Source of the DNA: Laccaria trichodermophora
Taxonomy: Eukaryota > Basidiomycota > Agaricomycetes > Agaricales > Hydnangiaceae
Direction: 5' to 3'
Assembly (NCBI GenBank): GCA_018417955.1
Contig: JACTVC010000020.1
Coordinates: 558,001 to 622,000, forward strand
DNA length: 64,000 nt
A program made the translations under genes and the position numbers. Below, piece by piece: positions 6,666-56,934 of this stretch (positions are counted from its first letter, which is position 1; each line of letters starts with the position of its first letter). The notes under the pieces are model-generated. The model made no database searches. It was not told the DNA's origin and was given only the letters and a program-made list of their open reading frames with translations.

Positions 6666-8278
6666 ATGGTGCAGGTAACTGTGGGGAATACTGTCGGCGC
6701 TCTCCAAATCGCGATTACTGTCGCTACGTTGCTCTTCGGGTTTGTTACTATGCAATGTATTCAATACATGAAACGTTATCCAGACGATCCGGCTATCTTG
6801 AAAACAATGGTGAGAGATTTGCTGCTATAGTTTGAGGTGGTCGCTAATCTCACCCATAGGTTGCTTTGAATTGGTATGCTTTTCGTGCTACCCTCGTGAA
6901 AAATACGCGCTAAAGCAGAAACACTTAGGCTTATGGAGCTTGGACAATCAATCGCCGTGTCTTATGAAATGTACAGGGTGACGGTCGAAGGGTCCAAATC
7001 GACTCGTTTCGTCGGCCTCGGAGCTGCAGTGGTTCTCGGAGGGTTGATTACGGCGATTGTGCAGGTGCGTCTGGCCTGATTAAAATCGTTGCAGTGTGCA
7101 CAAGGCTAATGGCAGAACAACATATAGAGCTTCTTTTCCTGGCGCCTATACAAGCTGCTTCCTCAGCCATTCAGCTACATCGGCATTCTTTGCATCGTGA
7201 TTTCAAATCTTCGATGCGTTGCAGCTTTCATATTTAGTCAGCGAGTCATTAACCAAACCGTTGTGGAGTGGAGAGCGGATTCTTTCAGCTTGGCCACGGT
7301 GTTGTTGTCGTCTGGTGCCGTAATTGACATCATCATTGCGGTTACTTTAGTAACGTTTTTGTTGAAAAAACGGCGAAAGGCTTTTTCTAGGTGCGGCCCC
7401 AGTCGTTGGCATTTAACTCGTATTCAAGGACGTCATTGTACAGGGCTGCAGGATTCATTGAGCGAATTGCAGCATTTACGATCCGTACGTGACCTTTAGA
7501 GTTGGTTATCACACATGACATTAACCTTTTCAAAGGTACTGGCCTTCTCACCAGGTAAGAGCTTATCATCCCATTCAAGCTTGCCAAAAACCAATAGAAT
7601 GGACAGTATCACGGCAACCTCTGTGCTTGTTTGCGTGAGTTACTTAACTCTTTCAATTTAAAATTTCACCTTTATCATCGCTCGACAGTACCTTACTATG
7701 AGGGAGACCTGTGAGGCTACTTCTCGAGATCAATTAATTTCCTATTTCTGATATTATTTTGCAGACGTTTGGGTCGCCATATACACGGTCCTTGCAAAAT
7801 GTGTGCTTATTCGTGTGGCTTTCGTTGACCATGATGCTTATTTCACTTCGAAAAGTGTACTCCAATTCTTTCCTTTCAGCGTATGAGTTTACGATGCTTT
7901 CTCAAGACCATGATTAACAAGATCCCAGACTGAATGGACGTCAATCATCATCATCAGATAGCGGAACCCACTCCTCTTCGCTTACACAACGAGTGGGCGT
8001 AACAAAGCCACCTAATGTTGATTCTGATATTTCTTGCGTCGTCGTTATTACTCATTTGTTTGCCTCTAGCCCCGTCCAAATCAAATGATTACAGTCGAGA
8101 TGACTTCAGTCGTCAAATCCGATAAAGACCAAATGGGTATACCGCAAGACAGTCACGAATGGCAAGACGTAAAATACCAGGTCGGTATTCCCTCTTCTTT
8201 GTTAATTTTCACCGGATTTATGTTGGAACTCAGGATCCTACTACCCAGCTAACGCCGCCACCGTCATCTGCGGTTTGA
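6666..8278 (+). CDS. DUF6534-type multipass membrane protein (about 333 aa, 13 exons)
   Basis: Membrane protein of the Agaricomycete-expanded DUF6534 family, function unknown. Exons: 6666-6809, 6860-6873, 6929-7064, 7128-7390, 7444-7484, 7536-7554, 7598-7634, 7689-7710, 7765-7800, 7856-7880, 7929-8037, 8070-8180, 8234-8278 (1002 nt, in frame). Hydrophobic helices include GALQIAITVATLLFGFVTM near the N-terminus, VGLGAAVVLGGLITAIV, YIGILCIVISNL and LSSGAVIDIIIAVTLVTFLL. The family hallmark end of the core is recovered only after splicing: VWVAIYTVLAKLYSNSFLSALNGRQ spans three exons. A Ser-rich cytoplasmic tail follows. The last two introns are less certain; retaining the final one would stop translation near 8240. 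Two exons are 14 and 19 nt long. Confidence 0.82.
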
Positions 8279-13842: not shown

Positions 13843-13863
13843 GGTCCCCACCAGCCTCCTTGC

Positions 13864-14045
13864 ATCTTCACCGCTCTGGCCTTATTGGCTTAGATCAAGT
13901 GTAGTATCTGTTCTTGATAGTTTAACCGCTATTATTGAGGCTTGACCTCTATCTGGTTATCCTATTTTTGCTGCCTCGGTTCCTTGGGCTCTGCTTGCAC
14001 CTCTTGGATGGTGATGACCTTGCTGCTGCAGAATCGGCTAGCGTC
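13864..14045 (+). ncRNA. U2 spliceosomal RNA (copy 1)
   Basis: U2 snRNA pairs with the intron branch site in the spliceosome. The sequence contains GGCTTAGATCAAGTGTAGTA, holding the invariant branch-site recognition GTAGTA, followed by TCTGTTCTT. A stem IIa can form from TGATAG and CTATTA around the TTTAACCG loop. An Sm-like site TATTTTTG follows (about 13967-13974), and then a stem-rich 3' part beginning GCTGCCTCGG. The 3' end is approximate. Homology with copy 2 continues about 100 bases past the likely mature end, so the duplication was of genomic DNA, not of a processed transcript. Confidence 0.85.
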
Positions 14046-14743
14046 GTCTGAGGATCTTTATTCTTTCTTCGCATGTTCCCTTTGCTGGAAGTTTCAACTG
14101 CCCATAACATTTATGGAACAGCGGATTTCAGCAAACATATCATCGTTTCGCTTCTTTTCTGTTGTTCTCAAGTGAGCGAGGGGTCTGTTCTCCGCCCATG
14201 AGCTATCTCGTGTAGTTTAAATTACAGCAGTAGTGTGTCGTTTGATTTTACAGCTTGGTTTCGGGCAAAGTCTTTCCACAACCAAGGTATGCATGGCATA
14301 CGAATTTCTTGGCTTACCCTTGTACGCTACGCAACAGTTATCTTATCAGTAGGTTGTCTTTTGTTTTCATAAGTCTGCCAAAAGTGTTGATCGTCACATA
14401 CCATAGATGTGTGGACTCAAGACTCTGAAGAAGAGAAGTGCAACAAACGGACCTGATATAACTGCTGTTCAGCAAGATAACGAAAGTTCGTAGACAAACC
14501 AAGAACGAACAGTCTCGAAGACTCAAACAGTTGACGAGTGGTAGGCCCGGGATGGGCTGCCTGGTTATATATGTCGGTGCTGGCCGTTCCAATTTCACTT
14601 TTTTTCATCTGCGCACAACTAGATATGCGGACCGGTTGAATGAATAATAATAACTCCATCAATGAGGACACCACCGGATGCTGAGGGCCAAGAAACGGGT
14701 ACTACCGAGGAAATCCTTGTCGATTGCGTCAATCCGTTTATCT

Positions 14744-16753: not shown

Positions 16754-18634
16754 AAACATTCATACCCTAGGCCCGTAGAATCGTACGCCTTGTTCGTCTG
16801 TTATTGTATGGAGGTTTTTCTATTTTTCTGGCACACCCGTTTCCTGTAGTAGATCACTTCTTGTCATTATGTTAAGAAGTTGAAAGGGCAGTGTACTTAG
16901 CTCCCCTGTCATCGTGTGTTGGAAATATTTTCTGATTGAACCTCCCGTTTCGACGCACAGCCTTAGACACAGGAGCGATAGGCGGGCCATTCACGGATTC
17001 TTTCTTTCCTCTGGATTGTAAAAGCTGTGACTCTGTTGACGCTAGGAGATCAAAAGCTGAAATTATGTATATTTGTTTGATGCTTGTAATGTTTGGCTCC
17101 CGCCTTTTGAAAATAACAGCGGTAATGTCGAAATATGGTCTGTAACGCTCAAATGTGTCATAAGAGAATGGTTACTTACCGAACTTCTTGTAATTGGTTG
17201 GTTCTCCGTAGAACATGAAACAGCCCCCCCAAATACATCTGCAAGGCTCCATCCACAGCTCACCGTCCTCCTAGTAAGCCTGCTCTACCTCCTCTTCGCC
17301 TCTCCCGTTCCTCTCCTTCAAACACTCTCAACCCTCCTTGAACTCTCCTCATGTTCCGCATAATGCTTCGCACTACACAACTGAATAATTTCTTCCATAG
17401 AACACGATCCCGAAGCGGAAAAGATCTTGGTAGATTTATTGCTGCAGGGTTCGTTGTCGAATATGAGGGAGGGGGGAGGATAGCGTGGAAGGAGAGGGTG
17501 AATGAGTTTGTTGTTGAAATCGAGAGGTTGTTCGGGATGATGTTGGAGGACGCTGACGAGTGGAGGGCTACTCCTTGACGCTGTTGACACGTTGAATCTG
17601 CGGTTGGTTTGGTATATGGTTAGGTTTTTTACTATTTAAATTCTTGAGATACCAAGTTGATATTTTTGGGTTAGATTGCAGCCGTTGTGGACACTTAAAA
17701 TACCTCCGTACGTTAATCATCCCTATTGTTCCAGCGTTAAGCGTTCTACGCAGTCAATTCCAGGATGCCGCGTCCTTCCATGTTGGTATCGCCCCCATCG
17801 ATCAACAGTGAAACTACCCGTTATTTTTGAACCATGTTGGCGTATGTTTCCCTCACCCTATATGGTATCTCTCTCTCATTCAACACCAAGAATGGGATCG
17901 TACTCAAGTATCTCATTGGTCCATCATCATGGGCTCCTCTCCTGGGACGTGCGTTCATCGGCACGGATCAACCCCGTCTGCTTGCTGCGCCTCACGATCT
18001 CCATCTTCCAAATTCAAGGGCGCCCACCCCTTGGTAACTGGTATTCATTCTTAAATCACTTGGGAATCTTTCTCTGAGACGACCACAACGCCCACCAAGG
18101 ACCCAGCCCTGATAGCAACCTGACGAAGGTTTTACGTTTCAGCCGCGACGCTGAGGTTGGCGCTCTGGCTGATATATTTTTTCGGTCGCTTAAACTGGAT
18201 AAGCGTGGTGCTGTGAAGGCGGCATTGACACAGGGGACGACAGCTCAGGCACAGAATTGGAACTCTTGGCTTCGAATCAACCTGCGATGGGTACAAGACT
18301 CGAAGGGGGAGGACAAATATGGGCTGCAATTTTTTTTTGTGGTAAGTTCTGTCCTGTTTCTGAAACCACAATATTGTAATAAAAAAAGGATACAAGTGAC
18401 ACATTTTTGAAGAAGAAAAAAGCTACAAGACGGGAGGTAAATTTTGAGACTTGACATTTGACAGACTCGAAGTACCCCAAGGTAATGGTATCGCGGTTAT
18501 AATTCAACCTCGTTTTTTTTTTTGCAATGAGTTACTCCAGGCATCAGAATTCGTGTGATTTGTCTCAGGTTCAAGTCATGATCATCATGGTTCGTGCAGA
18601 ATCATTATGGTCTGTGTGCTATCATCCTCCTTAC
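16754..18634. other. Region with gene fragments
   Basis: The proximal part (to about 17630) is shared with the inverted duplicate at 33.8-34.4 kb. Within it, 17351-17578 (plus) is an open frame with FVVEYEGG and RLFGMMLEDADEW; the other copy stays open beyond this point, whereas here a 1-nt difference brings a stop. A separate exon-like stretch at about 18143-18339 (plus) reads EVGALADIFFRSLKLDKRG and ends at a GTAAGT donor. Neither belongs to a family I recognise. Confidence 0.35.
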
Positions 18635-18820
18635 ATCTTCACCACTCCGGCCTTCTTGGCTTAGATCAAGTGTAGTATCTGTTCTTGATAGTTTAACCGC
18701 TGTTATGGAGGCTTGACCTCTATCTGGTTATCCTTATTTTTGCTGCCTCGGTTCCTTGGGCTCTGTTTGCACCCCTTGGATGGTGATGACCTTGCTGCTG
18801 CAGAATCGGCCAGTGTTGTC
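18635..18820 (+). ncRNA. U2 spliceosomal RNA (copy 2)
   Basis: Close copy of 13864-14045: the same branch-site recognition segment AAGTGTAGTATCTGTTCTT and an Sm-like site TATTTTTG. Stem IIa is kept as TGATAG with CTGTTA, a substitution that turns a U-A pair into U-G. Differences elsewhere include an extra T in TCCTTATTTTTG and ACCCC for ACCTC. No TATA lies 25-30 bases upstream, so this copy may be silent or use another promoter. Confidence 0.78.
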
Positions 18821-18829
18821 TGAGGATTT

Positions 18830-19349
18830 TTATTCTTTACTTCGCGTGTTCTCTTTGCTGGAAGTTTCAACTGCCCATAAAATCTATGGAGCGGCGTATT
18901 TCAGCAAACAGATCAGCTGGCAGTCGTTTCACTTAACCAGTTGAAATAATTTCCGCTCAGCTAAAGAACCCGGCAACTTGGTGGCAGGCGTTGCCTTCCC
19001 GCCCTTCCTGCTTGTCGCGTATGGAGAAAGCTGGTCAAGAAGTTTAAGGGACTTGAAGCCGTTGTCCCCACCTTTATTCTCATCAGAGTGAGGCAGCTTT
19101 TTGGATTAGTAGGTATCGCTTGTTGAACCCATATGGTCTGGCACTCCTATAATTGCAGGCCAATATGATCTTGGTTTATATTTCTCTCATACCCCGACCG
19201 CCTTCTCTGACTTCTCTTACAGAAATATCTCAACCTATCATTCGAATTTCATTCCTCACACTGTATTTAAGAATCGGCTCCTGCGAAAGTCCACGCGCTA
19301 AGGAAAAGTTGAGGAGGAAAAGGTTCCAGCGACAGCGAATATGCAGGCA
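18830..19349. other. Intergenic, between U2 copy 2 and CGI121
   Basis: The first 100 bases continue the U2 flanking duplication. The rest holds the 3' region of CGI121 and nothing else recognisable. Confidence 0.4.
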
Positions 19350-40555: not shown

Positions 40556-41319
40556 ATGTCCCCAATGAAAGTCTTTTCTGTGCTTTGCTTGTCACTGTCA
40601 TTGCTCGCTCAGGCGCATGTCGTTGATGACCATGACTCTGCAATGATATACTCAGGCTCATTTGGATCGATGCGATTCTCCGATGCGTCTGTGCATAGTG
40701 GAACAACGTGAGCTCAACACTTTCTGCATGATCCTTTCTGACCTAAAATCTTCATTCGTTGTTGTGCTGGTAGAGTTGTCATTCTACCCATTGGATCAGC
40801 GTCCGCAATATTGGGGACCACCACCTCCGGTTCTTCAACATCCGAAACAACGTCTGCAAATCACTCAGAAACCTTACTTCCACTGGCCGCTCCGGGCTCA
40901 AAGTAAGTCGCTCATTCTGCTTTTCGCCCCAAATTCATAGCTGTACCACAGAAGAACGCGCAAGGGTTCCATAATCGGTGGAGTAACAGGAGGCACAGTG
41001 CTTCTTATCCTCACAGGCGTCTTGTTGCTTGTCTTCTTGAGACGAAGAAGGCGACGGCAAGCTCGAGTCGAGTCGCCGCTGCCAGATACTCGTGCCTTGA
41101 AACGAAGTTGTCACCAATCAAACCTACTTCAGACAGTGATCGGGCGACGATGCCCCTTGCTAAATCCTCTGCGGTAGCATCTCCTCCGCCCGGTCTCTTC
41201 CCCTTTAATACAAACGCTACCGACAGCTTGATCTTGACTCAAAAGCCTTACTTGCCGCCACCAGTCTCACAAGCTTTCGACACTCCAAGAGTGGGATTGC
41301 CTCAGGCGTCGATAACCAC
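40556..41319 (+). pseudogene. Single-pass transmembrane protein gene, frameshifted and split by a retrotransposon
   Basis: Exon 1 40556-40707 begins MSPMKVFSVLCLSLSLLAQA, a signal peptide. Exon 2 40774-40902 is a Ser/Thr-rich ectodomain (TTTSGSSTSETTSANHSE). Exon 3 from 40952 has GSIIGGVTGG, a membrane helix TVLLILTGVLLLVFL and a stop-transfer RRRRRRQ. This architecture is the common fungal sensor or mucin type. At about 41094-41098 the cytoplasmic frame loses one base, since the neighbouring frame (LETKLSPIKPTSDSDR) reads on. At 41320 the frame runs into the LTR; its continuation lies beyond the element, at 54932-55006. Coding is therefore broken twice. Confidence 0.7.
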
Positions 41320-42322
41320 TGTGGAAGAACGAAGGTTCTACACAGGAGACAGTAATCGGTCGCCAACCTCGAAAAGCGGGGAGAAAGAAGGGAAGTGGTG
41401 AATACGGACAAAGGAGTGGAGTGTGAGAGACTTAGCGTGAAAGCGTGTGATTGCACGTCGCGACCTTATCAAGCGCGCGTTGTGTCAAGGTCGTCGAAGA
41501 CAATCGTGAGAGTACGTGTAGAGTCGACAATATGCGTGGTGTGGGTGTTGTGAAATCTTGTTAAGTCGCCTTGAAGAGCGTCGTCGTTAACGAGGCCGAA
41601 AAGACGGTGGCGTGCGTAAAAACTTTGAATACTTAAAAATCTTGTGAAGGGAGTTTTTGAGGGAAAAAGGGAGGATGCTCCATTTGACAGGTGGGAGGTC
41701 ACCTTTATACGAAATACAAAAATCACAAGGCATCGCACGTACTCGCGTGCTGCCTGACCAAAATAAAAAGAAGGTACTAAAAATAAAAACGAGCCAAAAA
41801 TAAATGATTCTGTTGTCACCTGCTTCCTCTCTCGGCTAATCCTTCGGGTTGGGAATGACTCGGGGAACTGACGACGTGGGGAGAGGTCTATTTCCGTGCG
41901 TCACTGCTGCCCTCAGTGCGGACGTCCCCAACGTCGATGCTCAACCCTACCGTCCAACCCTCAAGAGAAGCTCCAAGCGGAAAAGGATCTGTTAAAGAAA
42001 TAAAAAAATAAAAAAAAGACGAAGACACAACGACTAAAAGCGAAAGAGTCAAAAGAAAAAAAACGCGCGACTCAATTTAAAGTCCCAAATCCCATTCCTT
42101 CAAAGCTGCGAGAGTCGACACAAATAGCCGGAAGAGGCACAGCCACCGGTCTTCTTGAATCAATGTCTTCTGGCGTATTTCCTGGTTACACACATCGTCT
42201 CGCATTCTCTCGACTTTTAGTAAAGGAAATCGGGTAAAACAGAAAAATAAAAATAAAATAAAATAAAAGTTAAGACTCGAAATAAGGAGGGCGTCGTGAG
42301 TGGAACAATGCGCACTTCCACA
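41320..42322 (-). repeat. 3' LTR of the gypsy element
   Basis: 1003 bp, TGTGGAAG ... CTTCCACA. Matches 53925-54927; differences noticed at GTGGTGTGGG versus GTGGCGTGGG, CTCGCGTGC versus CTCGCATGC, CCTTCGGG versus CCTTCAGG and CTGACGACG versus CTGATGACG. Confidence 0.95.
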
Positions 42323-42397: not shown

Positions 42398-45300
42398 TTA
42401 GCGAAGAGGGAGAGCGTCCAATGCCCAAGACTCGAGATCTTCGATGCTTGTCTTTGCAATATAGTTTTGACGGTTTTGCGTGATGACCATGTCTGACGAA
42501 GCGTTGTATCGAATACAATGGACTGATCTGTCAAGTCCTGGATTGAGTTCTGCAATAGAAGGATAAAATCCGAAATGGGGATTAGGATTCAAAAGCGATG
42601 TTGAAGTAATCGTTGGAATGTGTGACAAGGAGCGATTTTCTGGGAGGAAAGCATCCCCAACTTTGACCGAAACCGGAAACGACGGCGTGACGAGTAGAGG
42701 TTGGTTTAGAGTTCCAATAATGAATGAAGCGTGAGACGACGAAGAAGACGTGGCAGCCACATGAAGTGCGTATTCGGTGTGGTTGACTGTTCTGACCGTT
42801 TGATGTTCTTTGCGATAATAGAAAATCTTTAAACGATTAGCGGCAACTGCACCTCGTATTACTGTACCGTTGAGTTCTCGCAACTGGTAAGTTGTGTCAC
42901 GAAGTTTGCGATGAACGATGTAAGGTCCAGTCCAACGCAGCGCTCCCTTGTTACCCATCTGAGAGTCTAACCACGTCTCGTGTAAAAGAACCCAAGTCCC
43001 TAGAAGGAAGTCACCTGAAGAAAGTTGACGTTCATGCTTACTGTTAAAATCATCTACCGCCTGCTGGCGTACACGTTTCTGTTGCTCCATGGCTAGTACC
43101 AGCTTCTTGTCTCGACGAAGTATCTGTTGCATACACATAGTGAGAAGATCTTCGGTTGACGCTACGGTGTGCCAGTCGAGTGCTTCCCAAGTCCTATCTG
43201 CGATATCAAAAGAGAAAAGGGGGTGTAAGCCGTAAAGTAAAAAATAAGGGGTGTAACCGGTGACTCGAGAAGTCGAACATTGCATAGCCCAGAGTCCTGC
43301 ATGGAGATAAAGTGGCCAACGATGCGTATCCTTGCCGCAAGCGCGAAGGATGGAATTGACGAGTGTCTGATGTGAACGTTCAGCGTGACCATTTCCTTCA
43401 GGATGGTAGGGCGAAGAAACAATGACGACGATACCGTACTGCTTGAACAAAATGTCAACTGCGCTTTTAAATTCTGAACCACCATCAACAAGACAAAGAA
43501 GAACACAGCCAAAGCGAGAATATACTTCCTCATACAGAAATTTCGCCCAAGTTTCGGAGTTTGGTTTGCGAGCTGCGCGGGCTTCCACCCATGACATCGC
43601 CGGGTCCGTCGCTTGAAGTAAATATTTCATCCCGCCAACGCCGTCTGGCATGTGGATAGTATCCAGGTCGAAGCGTCGCAAAATCCCCGAATTCCAGGTT
43701 GGACTAAAAGCCACAACTGGACGAGCCTTCGAGCGGAGCTGACAGATGTTGCATGATCGAACAAAGTAGGCTATCTGGTCATACATATTCGGCCAATAGA
43801 AGCGTTCCGAAAGCGTTTTGTAGGTCGCGTCTCGTCCACGATGTCCGACACTGTTATGGGCCTCTGCAACTAAAGTCGCACGGCGGTCAGTGTCCATTAC
43901 CACGAGTCGAGGCAACCTTCCATCTGATTCGATCTTCCAAAGTCGATCTCCGTCATGCAAGAAAAAGCCTTTGGTTCGACGGATGAAGGCTTTTCTTTGA
44001 ACAGGGTCTTGACAGCGAACAGGTAAAGCATCCGTTTTGAGGTAAGTGATGATTTCTCCCCACATCTCAGCAGAGTCTTGGTCTTTCACTCCGTACGCAT
44101 GAGTCGCACACGTAACGCAAGTCTGGGGATCTATATCTTCATAGTGAAGCCTATTGTCAGTTCGTTGAAAGGAGTCTGGGATTCCTGGAAGAGTAGACCG
44201 ATCAGTCAAAGTAGGCAGCGGCGCACCTTCCTTCAAAGTCGACATGAAAGCGCGAGGGTATCGTTGTATTTCAATTGTGAACACTTCACCAGCTAACTCA
44301 CATGTTACCAGTTCTGACACGTTCACCTGACGGTGTTCGAATTCCCGACCTGTATACGAAAAGTCGTCAGTAACCGAAAGAAGAGAACGCTTAACAAGTG
44401 ATCCTTTGCTGGAATCCTTCTTTGCAAAGTCAAATTTTGACTCTGTCAACCGACGAAGTTCAGTTGCCAAGGCAGGTGCCGGGTCTGTGGTCTGAAGCAT
44501 AGAAAGGTCTTCAGCAATGGAAGTAGTACGAAACGAAGCAAAAGGGGTATGAGGAGTACGACGCATAGTCAACAAAAGGTCCTTGAAAAAGTTGTTGTCA
44601 AGACGCGTCGAGCGATAAGAATTCAAGGATCCTATAGATAAGAAGTTTGTCAATGATGCTACTGAAGGTTTACGGAACGAAGCTGAGCCCATAAATTTGT
44701 CCAAGTATTCCTCGGCGTCCTCGTCTTCGGAGTCCTCGGGAGCGCGTCTTCGACGAGAAAGTCCATCCGCCCCTGTATGCGAAGCTGCTGGGACGTGATT
44801 CATTACGTAGTCGAACAATGCGATGTAGGAAATCCATCTTGTCATTGGAGCGTTGGGAAGATCCGGCTGCTTTACCATTTCAATCAAAAACTTCGCGTCA
44901 ACGTCGATTCGGAAATGAATGCCCCAAATTCGATGGCGAAGGTCCTTGATCGCGCGAAATACACCATACAGCTCTAATTTTGCCTGGGAGTATCTGGATT
45001 CAGTCTCGTTAAATGTGCAAGAGCCAAAAATCACCGGGTGTTTTTCCTTTTCAACCATTTGAAACAAAATCCATCCCGTACCGTTTTGACATGAGTCGAT
45101 TCCAATGATGACTAGTCCATTGTCCGAAGCTCGAGGTAATGCGTCCAGCTGCGACATCCGTTTTGCTGCATCGTAGTCAAGCTTAATTAAGACAGGAGCC
45201 GTGGAGATAAGACGCTTGAGTTCATTTTGCGCCGCTTCTGCTTCTGGAGAAAAATAGAATTCCCGTTGGACAGCTAGACGTGTGAGTTGGGTAAGTGGCT

Positions 45301-46705
45301 TTGCAATAAGAGAAAACCCTCGTATCCATTTTCGTCCGACCCCTGCTGTACCAAGGAACGACCTGACATCTGTAATGCTGGTCAAAGGTCCCCAATTCAA
45401 AATTTTGGTTACCAGTCCGTGTTCGAGATGCCACCCGTCTTTCGATACAATAGTTCCGACGATGTGAAGTCGTGGCGTCGCAAGAACGAGTTTTGTTCCA
45501 GAGGCAGTAATTCCTGCTTCGATAAAACGTGTCAGAAAATGGTCCAAAGTAGTAGCATATTCAAAAACGAAGCGTCTGATCCCAGGAGCGACTTCTTCGT
45601 CCCCATAAGTCGATTTTGGTCCTTTCAACCCAACGTCGTCCACAAAGACACCTCCGTTTTGGGGGATTTCTTCTTGCAAGGTGTGAGTCATGCATCGTTG
45701 GAATTCTGGAAGCGAGTTGGTAGCCCCTTGCGGGAGCACACAAGAACGATGAGGGCCTATCAAAGAACTAAAAGTGGTAAGAGGCCTCGATGCAATACCA
45801 AGCCTTTGGCCATCATAACCTGAAAATAAATCTGCGAGACCGTATATTACATGTCCGACAAAGCTCTCTGCAAAATCATCAGTTCTCGGAGGTAGCCCAG
45901 CATCACGCACCGTAACTCTGTTGAGTTCTTGTACATCAGCCACAAGACGAATTCCTCCTTTCGGTTTGCCGACTGCGAAGATCCGGGATCTGTATGATGC
46001 GGTAGAATATTCGTACTTTCCTGCCGCTTTTTGCTCCAGAAGCATCTGGCGAACTGTATCTTCTATTGCCTTCGGAACGCGAATAGGTGCTTGTACCCAT
46101 GGAACATGTTCAATCACTGGGATTTCATAATCTGGAAAATATTTTTTAGAAAAAGTACCACGCTCTGAATCCTCGAACGCTAAGGCGCGCTCTCGGGTTT
46201 TCAACACAACAACCAAGAGATCAATTTCCCGAGGCCGTAGAAAGTCCTTAGGAACACTCGAGAGAATTTTTGCGAGACGATTTTCGGTCAAGCGTTTTGT
46301 TGGGAGAAATTCTGTAAGAAGAGGTGGATCTAAAGGAAGAGGAGGCAGTAAAGGAATAATAACAGGGAGAAATACTTGCCCTGAGGGATCCGGCATGTAA
46401 CTGGGCACTGGTCGAACCTTCTTGTCCACTGTCTTATATTTAGTCCTCGTCTGGAGTGGACAAGATTCATAGGTGAGCGCGCGTCGAGTCCAAGGTGTCA
46501 AAAGAGGGCGGGAACTCCGTGGAGAACAATGTGCTACATTCTGTAAAATAAAATCGTAAGCTTCAGGGGGTTCTAGTTCAGAAACGAAAGAAGGAGAATC
46601 AAATCCGTAGGTTCCCATCAAAGAATGAAGCGACTGTCCAAGAGTAGGAACGGACACGTCCTGGATTGATCCAGGCTTGGGATATGCGTCTGCTTCTATT
46701 TTCCC
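42398..46705 (-). CDS. pol: Gypsy pol polyprotein: RT, RNase H, integrase (about 1419 aa, -1 frame)
   Basis: Intact polymerase polyprotein. Reverse transcriptase: KPKGGIRLVADVQELNRVT near residue 231, VLPQGATNSL near 307, catalytic FVDD at about 338-341. RNase H: GIDSCQNGTGW near 519, then acidic LELYGVF and DADGLSRR-like end. Integrase: zinc module His934/His939/Cys969/Cys972 (HNSVGHRG ... CNICQ), then the catalytic triad around FDLDTIH (about 998), LVDGGSEF (about 1058) and HPEGNGHAERSH (about 1093), and a GPY module (RWTGPYIVHRKL). No chromodomain is visible. There is no ATG at its start; the frame opens shortly upstream in the -1 frame relative to gag-pro, so it is probably made by frameshifting at 46699-46705. 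Confidence 0.93.
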   Translation of the reverse strand, partial: GKIEADAYPKPGSIQDVSVPTLGQSLHSLMGTYGFDSPSFVSELEPPEAYDFILQNVAHCSPRSSRPLLTPWTRRALTYESCPLQTRTKYKTVDKKVRPVPSYMPDPSGQVFLPVIIPLLPPLPLDPPLLTEFLPTKRLTENRLAKILSSVPKDFLRPREIDLLVVVLKTRERALAFEDSERGTFSKKYFPDYEIPVIEHVPWVQAPIRVPKAIEDTVRQMLLEQKAAGKYEYSTASYRSRIFAVGKPKGGIRLVADVQELNRVTVRDAGLPPRTDDFAESFVGHVIYGLADLFSGYDGQRLGIASRPLTTFSSLIGPHRSCVLPQGATNSLPEFQRCMTHTLQEEIPQNGGVFVDDVGLKGPKSTYGDEEVAPGIRRFVFEYATTLDHFLTRFIEAGITASGTKLVLATPRLHIVGTIVSKDGWHLEHGLVTKILNWGPLTSITDVRSFLGTAGVGRKWIRGFSLIAKPLTQLTRLAVQREFYFSPEAEAAQNELKRLISTAPVLIKLDYDAAKRMSQLDALPRASDNGLVIIGIDSCQNGTGWILFQMVEKEKHPVIFGSCTFNETESRYSQAKLELYGVFRAIKDLRHRIWGIHFRIDVDAKFLIEMVKQPDLPNAPMTRWISYIALFDYVMNHVPAASHTGADGLSRRRRAPEDSEDEDAEEYLDKFMGSASFRKPSVASLTNFLSIGSLNSYRSTRLDNNFFKDLLLTMRRTPHTPFASFRTTSIAEDLSMLQTTDPAPALATELRRLTESKFDFAKKDSSKGSLVKRSLLSVTDDFSYTGREFEHRQVNVSELVTCELAGEVFTIEIQRYPRAFMSTLKEGAPLPTLTDRSTLPGIPDSFQRTDNRLHYEDIDPQTCVTCATHAYGVKDQDSAEMWGEIITYLKTDALPVRCQDPVQRKAFIRRTKGFFLHDGDRLWKIESDGRLPRLVVMDTDRRATLVAEAHNSVGHRGRDATYKTLSERFYWPNMYDQIAYFVRSCNICQLRSKARPVVAFSPTWNSGILRRFDLDTIHMPDGVGGMKYLLQATDPAMSWVEARAARKPNSETWAKFLYEEVYSRFGCVLLCLVDGGSEFKSAVDILFKQYGIVVIVSSPYHPEGNGHAERSHQTLVNSILRACGKDTHRWPLYLHAGLWAMQCSTSRVTGYTPYFLLYGLHPLFSFDIADRTWEALDWHTVASTEDLLTMCMQQILRRDKKLVLAMEQQKRVRQQAVDDFNSKHERQLSSGDFLLGTWVLLHETWLDSQMGNKGALRWTGPYIVHRKLRDTTYQLRELNGTVIRGAVAANRLKIFYYRKEHQTVRTVNHTEYALHVAATSSSSSHASFIIGTLNQPLLVTPSFPVSVKVGDAFLPENRSLSHIPTITSTSLLNPNPHFGFYPSIAELNPGLDRSVHCIRYNASSDMVITQNRQNYIAKTSIEDLESWALDALPLR

Positions 46706-46948: not shown

Positions 46949-46958
46949 GTGCCTTCTC
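46949..46958. repeat. Left 10-bp target-site duplication of the foldback
   Basis: GTGCCTTCTC, identical to 51293-51302. On the coding strand it is GAGAAGGCAC within the protease frame. Confidence 0.85.
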
Positions 46959-47109
46959 CAGCCAGTGCTGTTACCTGAAGCCTTCAGAATGGGAAGTTGT
47001 CCAAAAAGCATCTTATATCAGAATGGGTAGTTGTCTGCTGGACAGTTTACCAAGAGTCATGATGTGTCGTCAACGTAGGCTATAGAGGACGTGAGTGAGC
47101 TCAGTGGTT

Positions 47110-47720
47110 GTGCTCACTGTTGGTGACGACGTCGGGCACTGTTTTCAGGGTCCAGGGCGCATTTCCAAATAAGGAAATATGCGCATTTCCAAATGAAAAA
47201 TAGCAATAAAATAGGGAAAAAATCAGAAAAAAATGGGGGATGGTGCTCACTGTTAGTGACGACGTTGGGGGCTGTTTTCAGGGTCCAGGGCACATTGCCA
47301 AATATGGTAATATAGCCAAGAATAGCCAGAAAATAGCCAAAAAATCAGAAAAAAATGGGGAATGGTGCTCACTGTTAGTGACGATGTCAGGCACTGTTTT
47401 CAGGGTCCAGGGCACATTGCCAAATATGGTAATATATCCAAAAATAGCCAGAAAATCAGAAAAAAATCGCAGGTGGTGCTCACTGTTAGTGATGACATTG
47501 GGGTTGTTTGCAGGGTCCAGGGTGCATTGCCAAATATGGTAATATATCCAAAAATAGCCAAAAAATCAGGAAAAAATGGCAGGGTGGTGTTCACTGTTGG
47601 TGATGACATTGGGGTTGTTTTCAGGGTCCAGCGTGCATTTCCAAATATGGTAATATATCCAAAAATAGCCAGAAAATAGCGGAAAAATTGGAAAAACATA
47701 TGAATGGTGTACAGAACATC
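47110..47720. repeat. Tandem 105-140 bp repeats, left arm
   Basis: About six degenerate units, each starting near GTGCTCACTGTTAGTGACGA, continuing TTTTCAGGGTCCAGGG and GCCAAATATGGTAATAT, and ending in a run of AATAGCCA and AAAAATCAG. Unit starts fall near 47110, 47250, 47371, 47476, 47588 and 47704. The mirror array is at about 50499-51109. Confidence 0.8.
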
Positions 47721-48239
47721 AGGCACTGCCTTCAGGGTCCATCCCAAAAGGGAAATATGACCTGGTGTGACTAAAAGTGAAGAAAAGCAAGATGAGAATG
47801 ATTTTAACTATCAGGGTCCATGTAATGGGATGTTGGGATGTTGGTCACATGACCAATTACCAAAAATGGTCAAAAAACGAAAGTTGTAGCCCTATGCTGT
47901 AGCTTTCTGAATCTGTTTGAATTATGTTCTGAAGTGCTCCCATTGTGGAGATATGAGGTAAAGGAAATTCAAAAGCGTCGCGTTTTTTTTTGTTTTTTGT
48001 GTTTTTCTCCATGAAAACAAAACCAAATAACATGATTTCAGTATATTTAGAAAGCTAAAAGAAAGGGCTACAAATATTGTATCGTGGGAAAAATGACCAA
48101 AAAAGGAAGGTGCATGCCCTACAGATATAGACTACCAAGTTTACTGATAGACTACGAAAAAGTCGGACTTAGACTACAAAGTTTACTGACACATACAAAA
48201 GACTACAAAAGTTTATAGACTACCAAATTTACTGATAGA

Positions 48240-48700
48240 CTATAAAAGTGAGATGCAGACTACAAAAGCTTGGACTTAGACTACAAAGTTTGTAGTGTCC
48301 GCTTTTTCATTAGAAAGTCTGTGTTGTCTGCTTTTTGAGACTACAAAAGTTTGTAGTGTGCGCTTTTTCATTAGAAAAGTTTGTAGTATCCGCTTTTTGA
48401 GACTACAAAAGTTGTAGTGTGCGCTTTTTTATTAGAAAAGTTTGTAGTATCCACTTTTTGAGACTACAAAGTTTGTAGTGTGCGCTTTTTCATCAGAAAA
48501 GTTTGTAGTATTCACTGTTTGAGACTACAAAAGTTTGTAGTGTGCGCTTTTTCATCAGAAAAGTTTGTAGTGTCCGCTTTTTGAGACTACAAAAGTTGTA
48601 CTGTGCACTTTTTCATTAGAAAAGTTTGTAGTATCTACTTTTTGAGACTACAAAAGTTTGTAGTGTGTGCTTTTTCATCAGAAAAGTTGTCTGCTTTTTC
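48240..48700. repeat. Tandem repeats of about 62 bp with internal micro-palindromes, left arm
   Basis: About six units combining GACTACAAAAGTTTGTAGT, GTGCGCTTTTTCAT, TAGAAAAGTTTGTAGT and ATCCGCTTTTTGA. ACTACAAA and TTTGTAGT are complementary, so each unit can form a small hairpin inside the large one. The mirror array is at about 49519-49979. Confidence 0.8.
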
Positions 48701-48925
48701 ATTTAAAAAAGTAGGTAATTGACATGTAGTTTATGGTGTCCTTGGACCTATCTATGTTATGGGGATGAGGTTGAAGGATTGCCATCATATTGCCAGTGCT
48801 GCAGCATTAGTTTTTGACATCATGCACAAGTTGTCTTGCACATCAGGAAAGGCCATCCTAAGCCTTTCATATTGATACATGCTGTCCTATCTGAAAAGAT
48901 AATTGGAAGCTCATGTGGGGATATG

Positions 48926-49293
48926 ATGAAGGATTGACATGACTTTAAATATTGCTATTGCCACATCAGCAGTTTCTCACATCATGCCCAAGTTGGCTTT
49001 CAGGTAGAGGAGGCTATTCATGTTGATATCTACTCAGTACATGGTCAACTTACAACATGACCTGACTTGAAGACACCTCCAAGGATGGATCAGCCCATCA
49101 TCAAAAGCCAAGTTGGTCATGATGTCAAAAACTGGTGATGTTATGTCAATCCTTCAGTGATACCCCCACATGAATGTATCAAAGTTGACGATGTTTCATA
49201 CAGGCCAGTAACTGTAAATGTGAAAGCAGACAGGATGAAAGGTAACTTGGTCATGATGTCAAAAGACTGATGATGTCATGTCAATTTTTTAGT
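48926..49293. other. Loop of the foldback element
   Basis: Unique spacer between the arms where complementarity stops (GATATGATGAAGG versus GATATGACTAAAA on the complement). It contains shorter internal similarity (GTTGGTCATGATGTCAAAA appears twice, near 49112 and 49246). No coding frame. Confidence 0.75.
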
Positions 49294-51265
49294 CATATCC
49301 CCACATGAGCTTCCAATTATCTTTTCAGATAGGACAGCATGTATCAATATGAAAGGCTTAGGATGGCCTTTCCTGATGTGCAAGACAACTTGTGCATGAT
49401 GTCAAAAACTAATGCTGCAGCACTGGCAATATGATGGCAATCCTTCAACCTCATCCCCATAACATAGATAGGTCCAAGGACACCATAAACTACATGTCAA
49501 TTACCTACTTTTTTAAATGAAAAAGCAGACAACTTTTCTGATGAAAAAGCACACACTACAAACTTTTGTAGTCTCAAAAAGTAGATACTACAAACTTTTC
49601 TAATGAAAAAGTGCACAGTACAACTTTTGTAGTCTCAAAAAGCGGACACTACAAACTTTTCTGATGAAAAAGCGCACACTACAAACTTTTGTAGTCTCAA
49701 ACAGTGAATACTACAAACTTTTCTGATGAAAAAGCGCACACTACAAACTTTGTAGTCTCAAAAAGTGGATACTACAAACTTTTCTAATAAAAAAGCGCAC
49801 ACTACAACTTTTGTAGTCTCAAAAAGCGGATACTACAAACTTTTCTAATGAAAAAGCGCACACTACAAACTTTTGTAGTCTCAAAAAGCAGACAACACAG
49901 ACTTTCTAATGAAAAAGCGGACACTACAAACTTTGTAGTCTAAGTCCAAGCTTTTGTAGTCTGCATCTCACTTTTATAGTCTATCAGTAAATTTGGTAGT
50001 CTATAAACTTTTGTAGTCTTTTGTATGTGTCAGTAAACTTTGTAGTCTAAGTCCGACTTTTTCGTAGTCTATCAGTAAACTTGGTAGTCTATATCTGTAG
50101 GGCATGCACCTTCCTTTTTTGGTCATTTTTCCCACGATACAATATTTGTAGCCCTTTCTTTTAGCTTTCTAAATATACTGAAATCATGTTATTTGGTTTT
50201 GTTTTCATGGAGAAAAACACAAAAAACAAAAAAAAACGCGACGCTTTTGAATTTCCTTTACCTCATATCTCCACAATGGGAGCACTTCAGAACATAATTC
50301 AAACAGATTCAGAAAGCTACAGCATAGGGCTACAACTTTCGTTTTTTGACCATTTTTGGTAATTGGTCATGTGACCAACATCCCAACATCCCATTACATG
50401 GACCCTGATAGTTAAAATCATTCTCATCTTGCTTTTCTTCACTTTTAGTCACACCAGGTCATATTTCCCTTTTGGGATGGACCCTGAAGGCAGTGCCTGA
50501 TGTTCTGTACACCATTCATATGTTTTTCCAATTTTTCCGCTATTTTCTGGCTATTTTTGGATATATTACCATATTTGGAAATGCACGCTGGACCCTGAAA
50601 ACAACCCCAATGTCATCACCAACAGTGAACACCACCCTGCCATTTTTTCCTGATTTTTTGGCTATTTTTGGATATATTACCATATTTGGCAATGCACCCT
50701 GGACCCTGCAAACAACCCCAATGTCATCACTAACAGTGAGCACCACCTGCGATTTTTTTCTGATTTTCTGGCTATTTTTGGATATATTACCATATTTGGC
50801 AATGTGCCCTGGACCCTGAAAACAGTGCCTGACATCGTCACTAACAGTGAGCACCATTCCCCATTTTTTTCTGATTTTTTGGCTATTTTCTGGCTATTCT
50901 TGGCTATATTACCATATTTGGCAATGTGCCCTGGACCCTGAAAACAGCCCCCAACGTCGTCACTAACAGTGAGCACCATCCCCCATTTTTTTCTGATTTT
51001 TTCCCTATTTTATTGCTATTTTTCATTTGGAAATGCGCATATTTCCTTATTTGGAAATGCGCCCTGGACCCTGAAAACAGTGCCCGACGTCGTCACCAAC
51101 AGTGAGCACAACCCCGAGCTCATCAGCACACCCTATGTACAGCCTACACCAATGGCACATCATGACTCTTGGTAAACTACCTTTAGGTAAACTGTCCCTT
51201 TGGCAAACTGTCCAGCAGGCAACTACCCATTCTGATATAAGATGCTTTTTGGACAACTTCCCATT
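49294..51265. repeat. Right arm of the foldback
   Basis: Reverse complement of 46988-48925. Every arm-derived open frame on the left has an identical translated mirror here (for example 47240-47542 with 50677-50979), which implies no differences over at least 508 bp. Extra sequence of 34-36 bp near 51170-51215 (TTTAGGTAAACTGTCCCTTT) is not on the left. Confidence 0.85.
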
Positions 51266-51267
51266 AT

Positions 51268-53595
51268 TCATATATGAAAGTAACAGCTACTGGTGCCTTC
51301 TCTACTGACGAATACGTGATGATCAAAACGCAATCCCGAGATCTTGATTTCCGCATCTCGAACGCAACCGCCTAGAGGGACCGGCCTACCGTTTATACCT
51401 TTGAGGGACCAACGCGTACCGTCGAGATCAATTGCCATAGCGGTTCGGTTGTAAAACTCCTGGGACATCAAGTTCAGTTCAGACCCAGTGTCAACCATGA
51501 AAATTACGTCCAAGCCTGCAAACTTTCCCCTGAATCTCCCCGTAATCATCGCAAAAAGAGGTTGAGGTGTCAAATGCATCTTGACCGCGGAAGCATAACA
51601 TATCATAATCTCTTCCTTGCTTTCAGTTGCTTCGTTGAACTCCAAGCCTATACGCGACTCGACGTATCCTGAATTTGTAGAGATATCAGCTGTGGGGAGA
51701 GACCGAAAATACTCCTCGTCATCAGACTCATATCCTCCGGTCAGTTCTGTCGTAAGTTCTTCATCCCAATCCTCCTCCTCGAGCGCCTCTACCACATTCG
51801 CAACCACGGGCTTCGTGTTGTACTCCCTTCGAGTTTTCGTCAAGTTGCTGACGGATTTTTGCAAGAACGCCGAAAGCGCAAGCAATTCCCCGAGTTCGAG
51901 TTGAACTACCGTCTTATTGACCTTTTCGCGTACAATCTTATCTAGATCATACATCTCTTGTATGTCAGATGTAAAATGATACGCTGAGGTTGGCTTAGCT
52001 TTTGAGGACGCCTCCTTCATTTCTACATCCTTATTTTTGGTAGGCGTGGCGCGACGATTCTTAAACGCATCTTCTGTGTTCACCTTTGGAGGTCGTAGAT
52101 TAAAAGCTTGAGGTGTCGACTGTACAGGGGCAATTGGAGGTCTTGAAATGCTTGGAGGAGGTCCCAAATTACTGAGGGTTGGAGTTGGAGGACGATTTTT
52201 GTGCTCTTGAGGTTTAGAAAAAGACTTAGCTTCGGTATCTTTCTTTTCAGGACGTATAATAGGATCAAATCTTGCTTTGTCTTTTTGAGAACGCGTAACC
52301 GCTAAAGCTGAAGAAGGTCGCGCGCGCCATGCCGGAACAACCGAAGTAGAGGACCCGTTAAAGACCTCCGACTCCAAAACCTCTTGTCCATCGAAAAGAA
52401 GACCGGCGTAATTGGCCATATGGGGAGGTAGGTCTCTTGTGACCTCCCGGCCTTTACCTTTTAAATGGCTAGACGCAGCCTGTTGTTCTCGAAGGACCTT
52501 CGCTACGCCTCCATCACTTCCAAAAGATCGAGGAAGTTCCAATCCATCAGTGCGCGCCAACCTACCTAGAGGGGTGTAAGCAACTAAACCTTCCTTGATA
52601 CATATCTCGACTTCAGGGCAAAACTTGAGGCCAAGCCGATGCGTAGTCTTGTCACAAAAGAAACATCTTGCTTCCCTCATAATTTGCTGATTAGTCAAAT
52701 TAGCGTTTGGAGTTATATTGACAGAGCGCAAAAACTCAGCGTGCGCCAGCCTGAGATCCTCCATTTGTTTTGTAAGTCGATCAACCGAACTGATGCCTAT
52801 TGGTTCCACAATAGGAGCCGCCGGAACAGTTTTCTCAAACGCGACCTTCTTAGCAGGCTTTTTCTTCTTCTTCACAACTGGAGCTTTGTCGATGTCGTCG
52901 TCGGATTCACTAGAACTCGTATCAGAGTCCGAATCTAAGTCTAAGCTTACCGGACCAATTTTCGCATCTAGATCCTCTTCGTCGAACTCCGCTCTAAGCC
53001 ATCCTAGCAAAGAAGAAATGGACAGGGGTGACGATGTCTTCAAATTTGTTGCTGGGATTTGTTTTTTAATTTTCATACGAAGCGTTGACGGAATCCCTCT
53101 ATAAAAACAAAGAGACACTTCAGTTTCTAGCATGCGTAAAGGAGCAAGGCCCGAAGAAAGCACCGTGAATTCTCTGTAATACTTATCCACGTCTCTTCGA
53201 GAGAGCATCATCCCTGATTCACCATGCTTCAAACTCCACTGCCGAAGTCGGTCAGGTGAGTTTACAGGGATCGCGTCGTTCGAGCTATAGAGGTCAGCTA
53301 GGAAAGTTCTTGCCTTAACCCAGTCATCACCGGCCCAAACGGCTGATCCTTCAATAACAATCCGCACTTTCGTGTGACAATAACGAAGTACGTAACCAGG
53401 GAGCTGTGTATGCGCAACTCGCGCACTATCTGCGTGCTGCTCAAGCGAGTCTAGAAAATCCTCTACGCGCTTTCCTTTGAAATAAGGAGCGGTAGGAGTG
53501 CCTGGAGTGGGCATCGGAATCCCAAGCGTCGTAATGATACTCGATTCAGAAGAGGACGGCGCCAATGGCAAATCGGCCATCGAAGGTTCAGGCAT
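51268..53595 (-). pseudogene. gag: Gypsy gag-protease frame, interrupted near its 3' end
   Basis: Structural Gag with a retropepsin at the C-terminus. The ATG at 53593-53595 (MPEPSMADLP) is the first in frame. A Gag-like helical region follows (YFKGKRVEDFLDSLEQHADS), then a Ser/Asp-rich stretch, KKKKKPAKK, a zinc-knuckle variant CFFCDKTTHRLGLKFC (C-x2-C-x4-H-x6-C, about residue 314), a disordered Pro-rich part, and the protease active site FMVDTGSELNLMS near residue 703. The frame then enters the foldback at 51292 and ends after a few foreign residues (SSCYFHI). The proper end lies at 46696-46948. This copy would yield a protease lacking its C-terminal strand. Confidence 0.88.
51293..51302. 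repeat. Right 10-bp target-site duplication of the foldback
   Basis: GTGCCTTCTC, identical to 46949-46958. Confidence 0.85.
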
Positions 53596-53905
53596 TGAAA
53601 TCAAACAAAAGAAGCGAAGGAAAACGGAATCAACGATAGGTAAAACTTAGCGTTAAAGGTTCCGTTCTTGACTTTTCTCGGAGAAGAGAAGCGACCCGTT
53701 TCAAGGGATGCGAAAGGGATGTATATGTCTAATAGCCGAGTAATCAGCGCGCAATCGAGAAAGTCGAACGTACCAAAAGTGCGAATCAGGAGATTTTTGT
53801 GATTATATGCGTCTGAAAACCGAGTAATCAGCGCAAAAACGATAAAGAAAACCCTACCAAATGAGTTTTCAATACTCAGAGGAGGAGGTCGAACGGAATA
53901 CCGAT

Positions 53906-53923
53906 CCCCTGTCTCGGTCACCA
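53906..53923 (-). other. Putative primer-binding site
   Basis: One base inside the 5' LTR, the minus strand reads TGGTGACCGAGACAGGGG. It begins with TGG, as expected for pairing with the CCA end of a tRNA whose acceptor 3' strand would read CGGTCACCA. The tRNA identity was not determined. Confidence 0.6.
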
Positions 53924-53924
53924 C

Positions 53925-54927
53925 TGTGGAAGAACGAAGGTTCTACACAGGAGACAGTAATCGGTCGCCAACCTCGAAAAGCGGGGAGAAAGAAGGGAAG
54001 TGGTGAATACGGACAAAGGAGTGGAGTGTGAGAGACTTAGCGTGAAAGCGTGTGATTGCACGTCGCGACCTTATCAAGCGCGCGTTGTGTCAAGGTCGTC
54101 GAAGACAATCGTGAGAGTACGTGTAGAGTCGACAATATGCGTGGCGTGGGTGTTGTGAAATCTTGTTAAGTCGCCTTGAAGAGCGTCGTCGTTAACGAGG
54201 CCGAAAAGACGGTGGCGTGCGTAAAAACTTTGAATACTTAAAAATCTTGTGAAGGGAGTTTTTGAGGGAAAAAGGGAGGATGCTCCATTTGACAGGTGGG
54301 AGGTCACCTTTATACGAAATACAAAAATCACAAGGCATCGCACGTACTCGCATGCTGCCTGACCAAAATAAAAAGAAGGTACTAAAAATAAAAACGAGCC
54401 AAAAATAAATGATTCTGTTGTCACCTGCTTCCTCTCTCGGCTAATCCTTCAGGTTGGGAATGACTCGGGGAACTGATGACGTGGGGAGAGGTCTATTTCC
54501 GTGCGTCACTGCTGCCCTCAGTGCGGACGTCCCCAACGTCGATGCTCAACCCTACCGTCCAACCCTCAAGAGAAGCTCCAAGCGGAAAAGGATCTGTTAA
54601 AGAAATAAAAAAATAAAAAAAAGACGAAGACACAACGACTAAAAGCGAAAGAGTCAAAAGAAAAAAAACGCGCGACTCAATTTAAAGTCCCAAATCCCAT
54701 TCCTTCAAAGCTGCGAGAGTCGACACAAATAGCCGGAAGAGGCACAGCCACCGGTCTTCTTGAATCAATGTCTTCTGGCGTATTTCCTGGTTACACACAT
54801 CGTCTCGCATTCTCTCGACTTTTAGTAAAGGAAATCGGGTAAAACAGAAAAATAAAAATAAAATAAAATAAAAGTTAAGACTCGAAATAAGGAGGGCGTC
54901 GTGAGTGGAACAATGCGCACTTCCACA
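53925..54927 (-). repeat. 5' LTR of the gypsy element
   Basis: 1003 bp, TGTGGAAG ... CTTCCACA, near-identical to 41320-42322. Confidence 0.95.
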
Positions 54928-55006: not shown

Positions 55007-56934
55007 ATGAGCGCCTCCGCGCCCGGATCGCTACCTTCAAAAACCCAGCCAGTAAAAGCTGCTAGCCAGGAGCACAATTTCGAGGATTTGAGCTCGGTGA
55101 CCAGTATCACCTCTCCAAAAGACTCCGTGATCGATAGCGTGACTCTGTCCATTGCTTCATCTGCATTGCTGGTCCCACAGATCACACGATGTCTCGCGGA
55201 TGAAGAACCTGTAGAATTTGTGGCTTCACCTATTCGGCAGCGGTTGGCGCCACAAGCCGTTAAGGGTATCATAGATGAGTAAGTGGATCGTTAGGATCCT
55301 ACACGCGGGTGATTGATTCGCATCATATCAACGTCTCATCTTTGGGCCAAGGGAATGTGAGAACAACCAAGTCTAATGCAAAGTTTACCATACTGCTCAT
55401 TGGTGTGAGCATTTGTGATAGCGCTTTTGATATGAGGCTCAAACTTCGATAGGCGAAACAGGGACAGGCAAGACGTCGTTTTTGTCGTTGCTTATAAACG
55501 TACTAGCAGGTTGCGTCCCCGACGAATACGACTTGGAGCCGTACGACGCAACGAACGAATTCGTCAGTGGCCAATCGCACAGTCGAACCAATGCTGCCAA
55601 AGTCTACACCTTCAAAAGTGTGAATGGTGTGCAGGTCACCGTGTTGGACACGCCTGGTCTCGCCGACATACGCGGGTTGGAGAAAGATGACGAGCACAAG
55701 CAGAGTATCACTGACACCATCCGAGACAGCGTCCCAGAGATCACAGCGGTGATCATTGTCGCGAACGGCACCAACCCACGCCTCAGTGTTGCCACCGACT
55801 ACGCAATCACTATGCTGTCATCCATCTTCAGTAGTACTCTCGCAGATAACATCGGCGTTCTCTTCACCAACATCAGCCCTTTCAACTGGAACTTCGACAT
55901 CGAAACGCTTCCTGTAGAGTTGCAGGGAGCAAAGACCTTTCTCTTGGACAACACTCTTGCACGACACAAGGAATACTTGTATATGAAAGCCGCTGAGGCG
56001 AGGGGCTCAGTTGCCAGGGCCAGTCAGGTGGTTTTGCAAGAGTTGAAGAAAACAGTCGATGAAGGTCATGAAACGACCTTGGCCACCCTTGCCGAACTAT
56101 TCGACTGGCTCAACGGACTTGTTCCTCAAGCAACGACTGACATCACGTTGCTCTATGACCAGTTGATGGAAATTGAGAGAAACATCAGCAGTATGCTCGC
56201 CCATATGACGCAGCTGGTGGAGAAAAGGGGGAAGTTCGATGACCTCCTCAAAAAATCCGACGGAATGCTATTGGTGAGTCAGGCTAATCCATTCACCAGT
56301 CGTTACATACCACTGACGGTCTTTTCTGCAGACCTTCAATGAATTGGCGAACGTCGAGAGCGTTATCCACAAGAAAACGTGGATTCTTCAGGATCAAGCG
56401 TATCACAGCACTATTTGTGTTCACCCGCAGTGTTATTCCAACTGTCATATCCAGTGCCACGTTGAATTTACTCTCGACCCTATGAAGTTAATTAACTGTA
56501 TGGCTTTTCCGTCAGAAGGTGCCTGTCAGTTTTGCAACCACTCCGTCCATGCCCATCAGCATTACAATGCTCTCTGGTCTGAGAAGCATGAAACTGAGGA
56601 GTATGTCGATGCCCAAAGTGAACAGCGTTACGACGAGGCGACGACAATGTTCGAAGGTACTCAAGTTTCGATTGAGGACATTCAAAACTTCAACGACAGC
56701 ATCGGGAAAGAGATGGCGGATGCAACTGGCGAGGTTGGCCGTCTTGTCACGGAGTACTCTAAACTTTCCCTCTCCCGAGGCTCCTCTGGCCAGGTCAAGA
56801 AATTTGTCAAGGTTCTCGAGACCCATTTGGAAGACATTCACCACAAGATGGACAATGCGAGTGTCAAGCGCATGGAGCCGAGCTTGAAGCAGCTTAAAGA
56901 GAAGCTCAGGGTACTTGAGTTGCGGCGGATGTAA
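55007..56934 (+). CDS. AIG1-like GTPase, copy 2, C-terminally truncated (about 578 aa)
   Basis: Paralogue of 3192-5230. Proposed exons: 55007-55278, 55362-55402, 55453-56273, 56332-56934. The GTPase core is intact: GETGTGKTSFLSLLINVLAG, DTPGLAD, and the Cys/His region CVHPQCYSNCHIQC ... CQFCNHSVHAHQHY. Exon 1 codes for a different N-terminus (MSASAPGSLPSKTQPVKAAS). The acceptor used in copy 1 before CAACGTCTC has changed from AG to AT; an AG 32 nt downstream (55360-55361) keeps the frame. Near 56920 a lost base relative to copy 1 ends the protein at RVLELRRM and removes about 30 residues. It starts 80 bp from the retrotransposon LTR. Confidence 0.72.

Follow-up and report, generated by a model that had tools for sequence, protein, structure and literature searches.

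A multi-copy foldback transposon family in the mushroom Laccaria trichodermophora, with arms that probably evolve together within copies

The window analysed here is a stretch of 64,000 nucleotides of the Laccaria trichodermophora genome (assembly GCA_018417955.1, contig JACTVC010000020.1, positions 558,001 to 622,000 of the forward strand). It contains a foldback element of 4,337 bp, which a script locating the end motifs placed at 46959-51295. This element is very probably a non-autonomous foldback DNA transposon belonging to a multi-copy family, whose arms co-evolve by internal recombination and whose transposase comes from another element; the attribution of that enzyme to the KDZ group is the least certain part of this reading. 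The family is real, repeated and well bounded, and it adds an independent example to a phenomenon already described in flies, without being categorically new.

The architecture of the element is that of a foldback, with long inverted arms that make up most of its length and contain internal tandem repeats. The left arm (47106-48926, forward strand) and the right arm (49293-51113, reverse strand) are 1,821 bp long and 100% complementary (0 differences in 1,821), and the constant coordinate sum of 98219 given in an earlier sequence-only reading of this DNA is confirmed (47106 + 51113 = 98219). Between them lies a loop of 366 bp (48927-49292, forward strand) that is present in 15 of the 17 copies analysed below, in either orientation. 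The sequence-only reading had recognised a large foldback with a loop and placed its start correctly, but its loop of 368 bp and its end at 51292 have to be corrected to 366 nt and 51295; the identical translated frames that it saw in both arms restate the palindrome. The tandem units that it reported inside the arms were also recovered. The left arm has an outer array of 110-133-bp units (47063-47680; repeat families D6 and D7) and an inner array of units of about 61 bp, each composed of two halves of about 31 bp (48253-48688; families D1 and D4), and their mirror images on the reverse strand lie at 50530-51127 (family D3) and 49531-49966 (families D2 and D5), respectively. The open frames within the arms are repetitive and reach at most 115 amino acids, and an Rfam search of the element gave no match at the gathering thresholds. 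The arms are bordered by a left end, LE1 (46959-47105, forward strand, 5'-CAGCCAGTGCTGTTAC...), and a right end, RE1 (51114-51295, reverse strand, 5'-CACCAGTAGCTGTTAC...), both identified by their end motifs and by an end search. The two tips are unlike each other and the outer ends are alike without being identical: 46988-47053 and 51200-51265 match in inverted orientation over 66 bp at 97%, and the 30 aligned sites that differ between the left and right ends fall within 46961-47103. Outside the ends, the 7-bp target site duplication CCTTCTC is repeated exactly on both sides (46952-46958 and 51296-51302).

We searched the whole assembly (59 Mb, 77 contigs; the window corresponds to bases 558001-622000 of our contig C13) for relatives of this element. 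The first 341 bases have at least 136 matches (the best 40 of 273 candidates were scored) and the loop at least 65 (the best 40 of 199). The 146-base query of the left end, for which all 32 candidates were scored, is found full-length at 97-100% in 10 places including the window, at 89% in one, and in some partial matches, and the right-end query is identical over all 182 bases in 4 places including the window. Ends, arms and loop thus recur at other sites, which bears out the earlier expectation that other genomic copies share these ends and that the element represents a non-autonomous multi-copy foldback family without recognised gene. We fetched 22 other places and, together with the window, 17 of them carry both ends, 8 in subfamily 1 (that of the window) and 9 in subfamily 2; the remaining ones (L013, L015, L017, L019, L022 and L029) are without one of the ends or rearranged and were excluded. 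Subfamily 2 has outer ends that differ from those of the window (CACTAGTAGCTGC.. and GACTGGTAGCTGCC..), its best arm pieces are mostly 86-92% identical to the window and its loop 94-96%. A third subfamily is represented by a whole copy of 4,061 bp, L038 (G000:C1:3694500-3704450), with arms 92-94% alike and the duplication GAGTACC, and its left end occurs in ten further places. The family comprises at least three subfamilies.

The 7-bp duplications are exact in 13 of the 17 two-ended copies; two others (L016 and L024) show a single mismatch, and the last two (L014 and L028) have no duplication. To assess mobility, we joined the two flanks of the window into an empty-site query of 400 bases, which has 18 matches: its own 2 flanks, 15 other places and 1 partial match (118 bases, 86%). 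The 15 places are uninterrupted relatives of the host sequence (75-78% identical) that span the join over 378-397 of the 400 bases and, with the target site duplications, they identify the foldback as a mobile element. Across the insertion site, the remaining relatives of the host sequence in the assembly reach at most 78% identity, and we therefore see nothing to indicate that the foldback travelled passively when its host was copied.

In the median, the two arms of a copy differ far less from each other than halves of different copies do. To quantify this, the half-elements of the 17 copies were aligned and their differences counted over the arm of the window, considering substitutions only. 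The median difference between the arms of a copy is 0.64%, against 5.55% between halves of different copies, and 12 of the 17 copies have values of 0-0.7%. The arms of the window have none in 1,821, with the nearest relative, L011, at 0.82%. The value for L030 (10.4%) is inflated by a 1.77-kb stretch outside the references. When gaps are counted, the best inverted stretch is 89.6-99.8% alike in the 16 other copies, L014 and L016 being the lowest. In a tree of the halves, the two of the same copy are sisters in 12 of 17 cases. We then counted the states private to a single copy of a subfamily, excluding the loop shoulder and omitting L030. In 14 of these 16 copies, 98 such states occur in mirrored form on the two arms, against 17 that are confined to one arm; 47 of the mirrored states and none of the others come from L027, and the numbers without this copy are 51 and 17. 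Mirrored states are so frequent that independent mutation is hardly their cause.

Several observations weigh against a uniform homogenisation of the arms. The halves are not sisters in 5 of the 17 copies (L011, L014, L016, L025 and L028), and, by distance, just 18 of the 34 halves have their own partner as the sole closest half, which is partly explained by the near identity of recent copies. The arms of L014 and L016 are about 5% apart, and these two copies have 3 mirrored states versus 71 in one arm. We considered the tree pairing of L025 and L028 as proof that transposition leaves the arms unhomogenised, and rejected it: the sites concerned fall in the loop shoulder (48881-48926). As a separate observation on the 16 copies, 36 of the 98 transitions that separate the two arms within a copy are at CpG, a dinucleotide that accounts for about 3% of the arm sites of the window; L014 and L016 supply most of these differences, and the bias is a hint of cytosine methylation.

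The copies also carry traces of the process that keeps their arms alike. Of the 7 loop-bearing copies of subfamily 1, six have the loop in direct orientation and one, L009, has it inverted; among the 8 of subfamily 2, the inverted orientation is found in six and the direct one in two. The coexistence of both orientations is what crossing over between inverted arms produces. Two copies, L012 (about 4.1 kb) and L026 (about 3.8 kb), no longer have the loop and have become near-palindromes. In L018 the differences between arms are confined to 47122-47338, and L010 is alone among the eight copies of subfamily 1 in having no left/right differences at the junction between end and arm, two patterns that point to correction proceeding in tracts. 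Taken together, the loop orientations, the partial tracts and the loop-less palindromes indicate that the arms of one element recombine, and comparison of the copies suggests that, in most of them, such recombination maintains the likeness of the arms. The copy L014 looks like the product of an exchange between copies, because its flanks mismatch and its right half is closest to that of L016. The sequence-only reading had left the choice between a very recent origin and gene conversion: conversion is supported, newness as the sole cause is not.

Identical arms could have other origins. At every transposition, one arm could serve as the source from which the whole palindrome is made anew, without conversion of resident copies. 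This would likewise yield near-identical arms and mirrored substitutions, and the loop-less L012 and L026 could arise in that way. However, the outermost 30 bp or so of the left and right tips are unlike in all 17 copies, L018 retains differences in part of its arm, and the correction in L010 passes the junction, all of which speak against rebuilding, and we consider it improbable. It nonetheless weighs on our interpretation that conversion in resident copies and one-arm copying at transposition are not fully separated by these data. An artefact of sequencing or assembly, such as a self-ligated or template-switched read, is much less plausible still. Perfect large palindromes are a generally known form of such artefacts, but here the same design recurs elsewhere with duplications and with different ends, and the loops of 14 other copies are 94-99% alike, so that we give this explanation almost no credit.

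Recombination inside resident copies would fit the following scenario. The transposase of another element would recognise the two tips, each of roughly 30 bp and distinct from the other, and move the foldback; a requirement for two unlike tips is suggested by their dissimilarity in all 17 copies compared. Breaks in the palindrome, or replication stalled there, would be repaired from the opposite arm, and this repair would erase the differences between arms (gene conversion) and sometimes invert the loop (crossing over). The enzyme itself may be a transposase of the KDZ group, similar to that of Kyakuja.

The ends of subfamily 2 are shared with much smaller elements. Exact motifs of the subfamily-2 ends occur 68 times (left) and 53 times (right) and form 49 paired elements, leaving 19 left ends unpaired. 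Of these pairs, 35 measure 460-838 bp and the other 14 measure 2.4-5.9 kb and hence, by this count of exact motifs, miniatures outnumber foldbacks 35 to 14. A miniature of 828 bp that we fetched (L057, G000:C1:549321-550148) has about 165 bp in common with each end of a subfamily-2 foldback and, given these common ends, the same enzyme probably moves both. L043 and L051 are miniatures as well, and the latter is interrupted. At that locus (L059/L051, G000:C77:1127500-1137390) there are two inverted copies of 1,164 bp, 100% identical and about 2.8 kb apart, one of which interrupts the miniature.

The strongest indication as to the transposase is the length of the target duplication. The sequence-only reading had proposed a 10-bp duplication and, from it, a Mutator-like element (MULE). 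A 10-bp match is indeed obtained in the window if GTG is counted, and the foldbacks Tetris and Tm1, with duplications of 8-10 bp, have been assigned to Mutator, and one of the papers on these elements considers that most foldbacks seem to belong there. Yet this GTG is the element's own right terminus (CACCAG on the reverse strand), a tip that is the same in the other seven copies of subfamily 1. The true duplication is of 7 bp, outside the 9-11 bp of MULEs, and the family-wide pattern described above agrees with it, which makes a Mutator-like foldback very improbable. The same length argues against Zisupton, a KDZ group with duplications of 8 bp (PMC12730594, in its sections on these elements).

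As to the superfamily, KDZ is the likeliest candidate rather than an identification. The Kyakuja elements of Agaricomycotina, also of the KDZ group, are described in the same source (Kojima 2025, in the parts that concern them) as having 7-bp duplications and 5'-CA..TG-3' termini, carrying TET/JBP genes and lacking inverted repeats. The foldback family has duplications of this length, and subfamily 1, to which the element of the window belongs, has such termini. KDZ transposases are abundant, with at least 182 matches genome-wide (the best 150 of 355 candidates were scored). Finally, one foldback copy (L033+L034, G000:C34:1902850-1918850) hosts a nested KDZ element of 13.5 kb with a 7-bp duplication, GTACATA. 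This element has CxC2 and KDZ domains, a weak TET/JBP match (PF12851, 22.3 bits for a cut-off of 34.9) and the termini TGGGGAGG../..CCTCCCCA. The 15.9-kb stretch that contains it was considered as the autonomous parent of the family and rejected, as the KDZ element sits between the copies of GTACATA inside the right end of the foldback and has termini of its own. Autonomous elements were also considered at unpaired left ends of subfamily 2 (LE2) that are followed by a KDZ gene in the same orientation, and the cases resolved are of another nature: L038 is the foldback of the third subfamily, ten more ends are of the same kind, and L043 and L051 are the miniatures described above. The translations of its flanks suggest that L038 apparently inserted into, and split, a KDZ-type transposase gene. 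Both KDZ genes examined beside foldback ends belong to other elements.

Other results are unfavourable to a KDZ transposase. We found no element with both these ends and a transposase: the 49 exact pairs of subfamily 2 are all of at most 5.87 kb and, among the 16 of 19 unpaired exact LE2 ends that were inspected, L048 and L050 lack a second end over the roughly 9 kb covered. A diverged right-end-like sequence lies at L056. (The L048 stretch has a frame, at 4785-6695, that resembles by eye another kind of transposase.) Subfamily 2 and the sole whole copy of subfamily 3 end in ..TC, not ..TG. The inverted stretch of 66 bp at 97% in the foldback ends departs from the description of Kyakuja, and derived foldback forms may differ from Kyakuja-type parents in this respect. 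Moreover, hAT transposases offer a competing source: the genome has 89 matches to hAT dimerisation domains, the hAT7 families of rusts make 7-bp duplications (PMC12730594, in its passages on hAT7), and LE1 starts with CAG, such that the family could be a non-autonomous foldback of hAT7 type moved by one of the hAT transposases of the genome. We found no hAT element with these ends, and those of subfamilies 2 and 3 (CACTAG.. and GACTGG..) do not look like hAT ends, and we regard this origin as unlikely. A foldback of the P superfamily, like Galileo, appears more doubtful. Galileo has the same duplication length, long repeated arms, arm identity within copies and a middle segment that occurs in both orientations (PMC2775673); the absence of matches to PF21787 in the genome says little, since 14 controls had none either. 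We therefore retain as possible, at somewhat less than even chances, that this family is the first foldback lineage of KDZ (Kyakuja), in which a KDZ transposase would read two unlike tips, gene conversion and loop inversion would act on the arms, and subfamilies would combine different ends with a shared arm-loop core.

Among known systems, the family closely resembles Galileo (Newton/Kepler) of Drosophila in its behaviour, without this implying membership of the P superfamily. The parts of PMC2775673 and PMC3573991 that deal with Galileo describe two copies whose arms are more than 99% alike inside each copy but about 7% divergent from one copy to the other and whose middle segments have opposite orientations, and also report chimeric copies. 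Both thus have duplications of 7 bp, long inverted arms with internal repeats that are alike within copies and diverge between them, a middle segment that lies either way, and chimeric copies. The host and the end sequences differ, and the tips of the Laccaria elements stay unlike. With Kyakuja, the family shares the duplication length and, in the window's subfamily, the CA..TG termini, whereas Kyakuja families as described have TET/JBP genes and, unlike the foldbacks, no inverted repeats. From the accounts that we consulted in part, Tm1 of nematodes and Tetris of Drosophila have composite arms made of tandem units and miniature relatives with shared ends, and Tm1 has asymmetric outermost motifs, as found here. 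They differ in the longer duplications and the Mutator assignment mentioned above, and Tm1 has a lower identity between the arms of an element (mean of 93%). The FB elements of Drosophila, as generally known, also have long inverted arms with tandem units, a likeness by description. The word "foldback" is absent from the main text of PMC12730594, and our search of the open-access literature returned nothing on foldback transposons of basidiomycetes or on Kyakuja foldbacks. The genome paper of Marasmius oreades (PMC8290104) states, in the portion consulted, that KDZ terminal repeats are shown in a supplementary figure.

In the window, the foldback interrupts a Ty3/gypsy-like retrotransposon on the minus strand. 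Its two long terminal repeats (41309-42322 and 53914-54927) are of 1,014 bp and differ by 6 mismatches. The pol frame (42398-46657, minus strand) has RNase H and integrase zinc domains (PF17917, PF17919 and PF17921 above their cut-offs, the reverse transcriptase PF00078 below), and the last codons of the gag-side frame (51268-53604, minus strand; gag/protease identity by eye) lie within the right end of the foldback. Elsewhere in the window, the regions 3479-4792 and 55278-56586, about 51.8 kb apart, have in common three segments that are 116-300 bp long and 79-83% identical, and a frame at 55482-56342 resembles by eye a GTPase gene. A direct duplication of about 290 bp, 89-94% identical, is found at 13852-14142 and 18623-18915, 4.77 kb apart.

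The finding of a Galileo-like pattern of arm evolution in a fungal family without shown relation to Galileo points to a general property of foldbacks and not to that of one transposase. The presence of many copies, with both loop orientations, in one genome makes the tract length and the direction of palindrome repair measurable in a mushroom. If the link to KDZ is true, foldbacks would arise in one more group of transposons.

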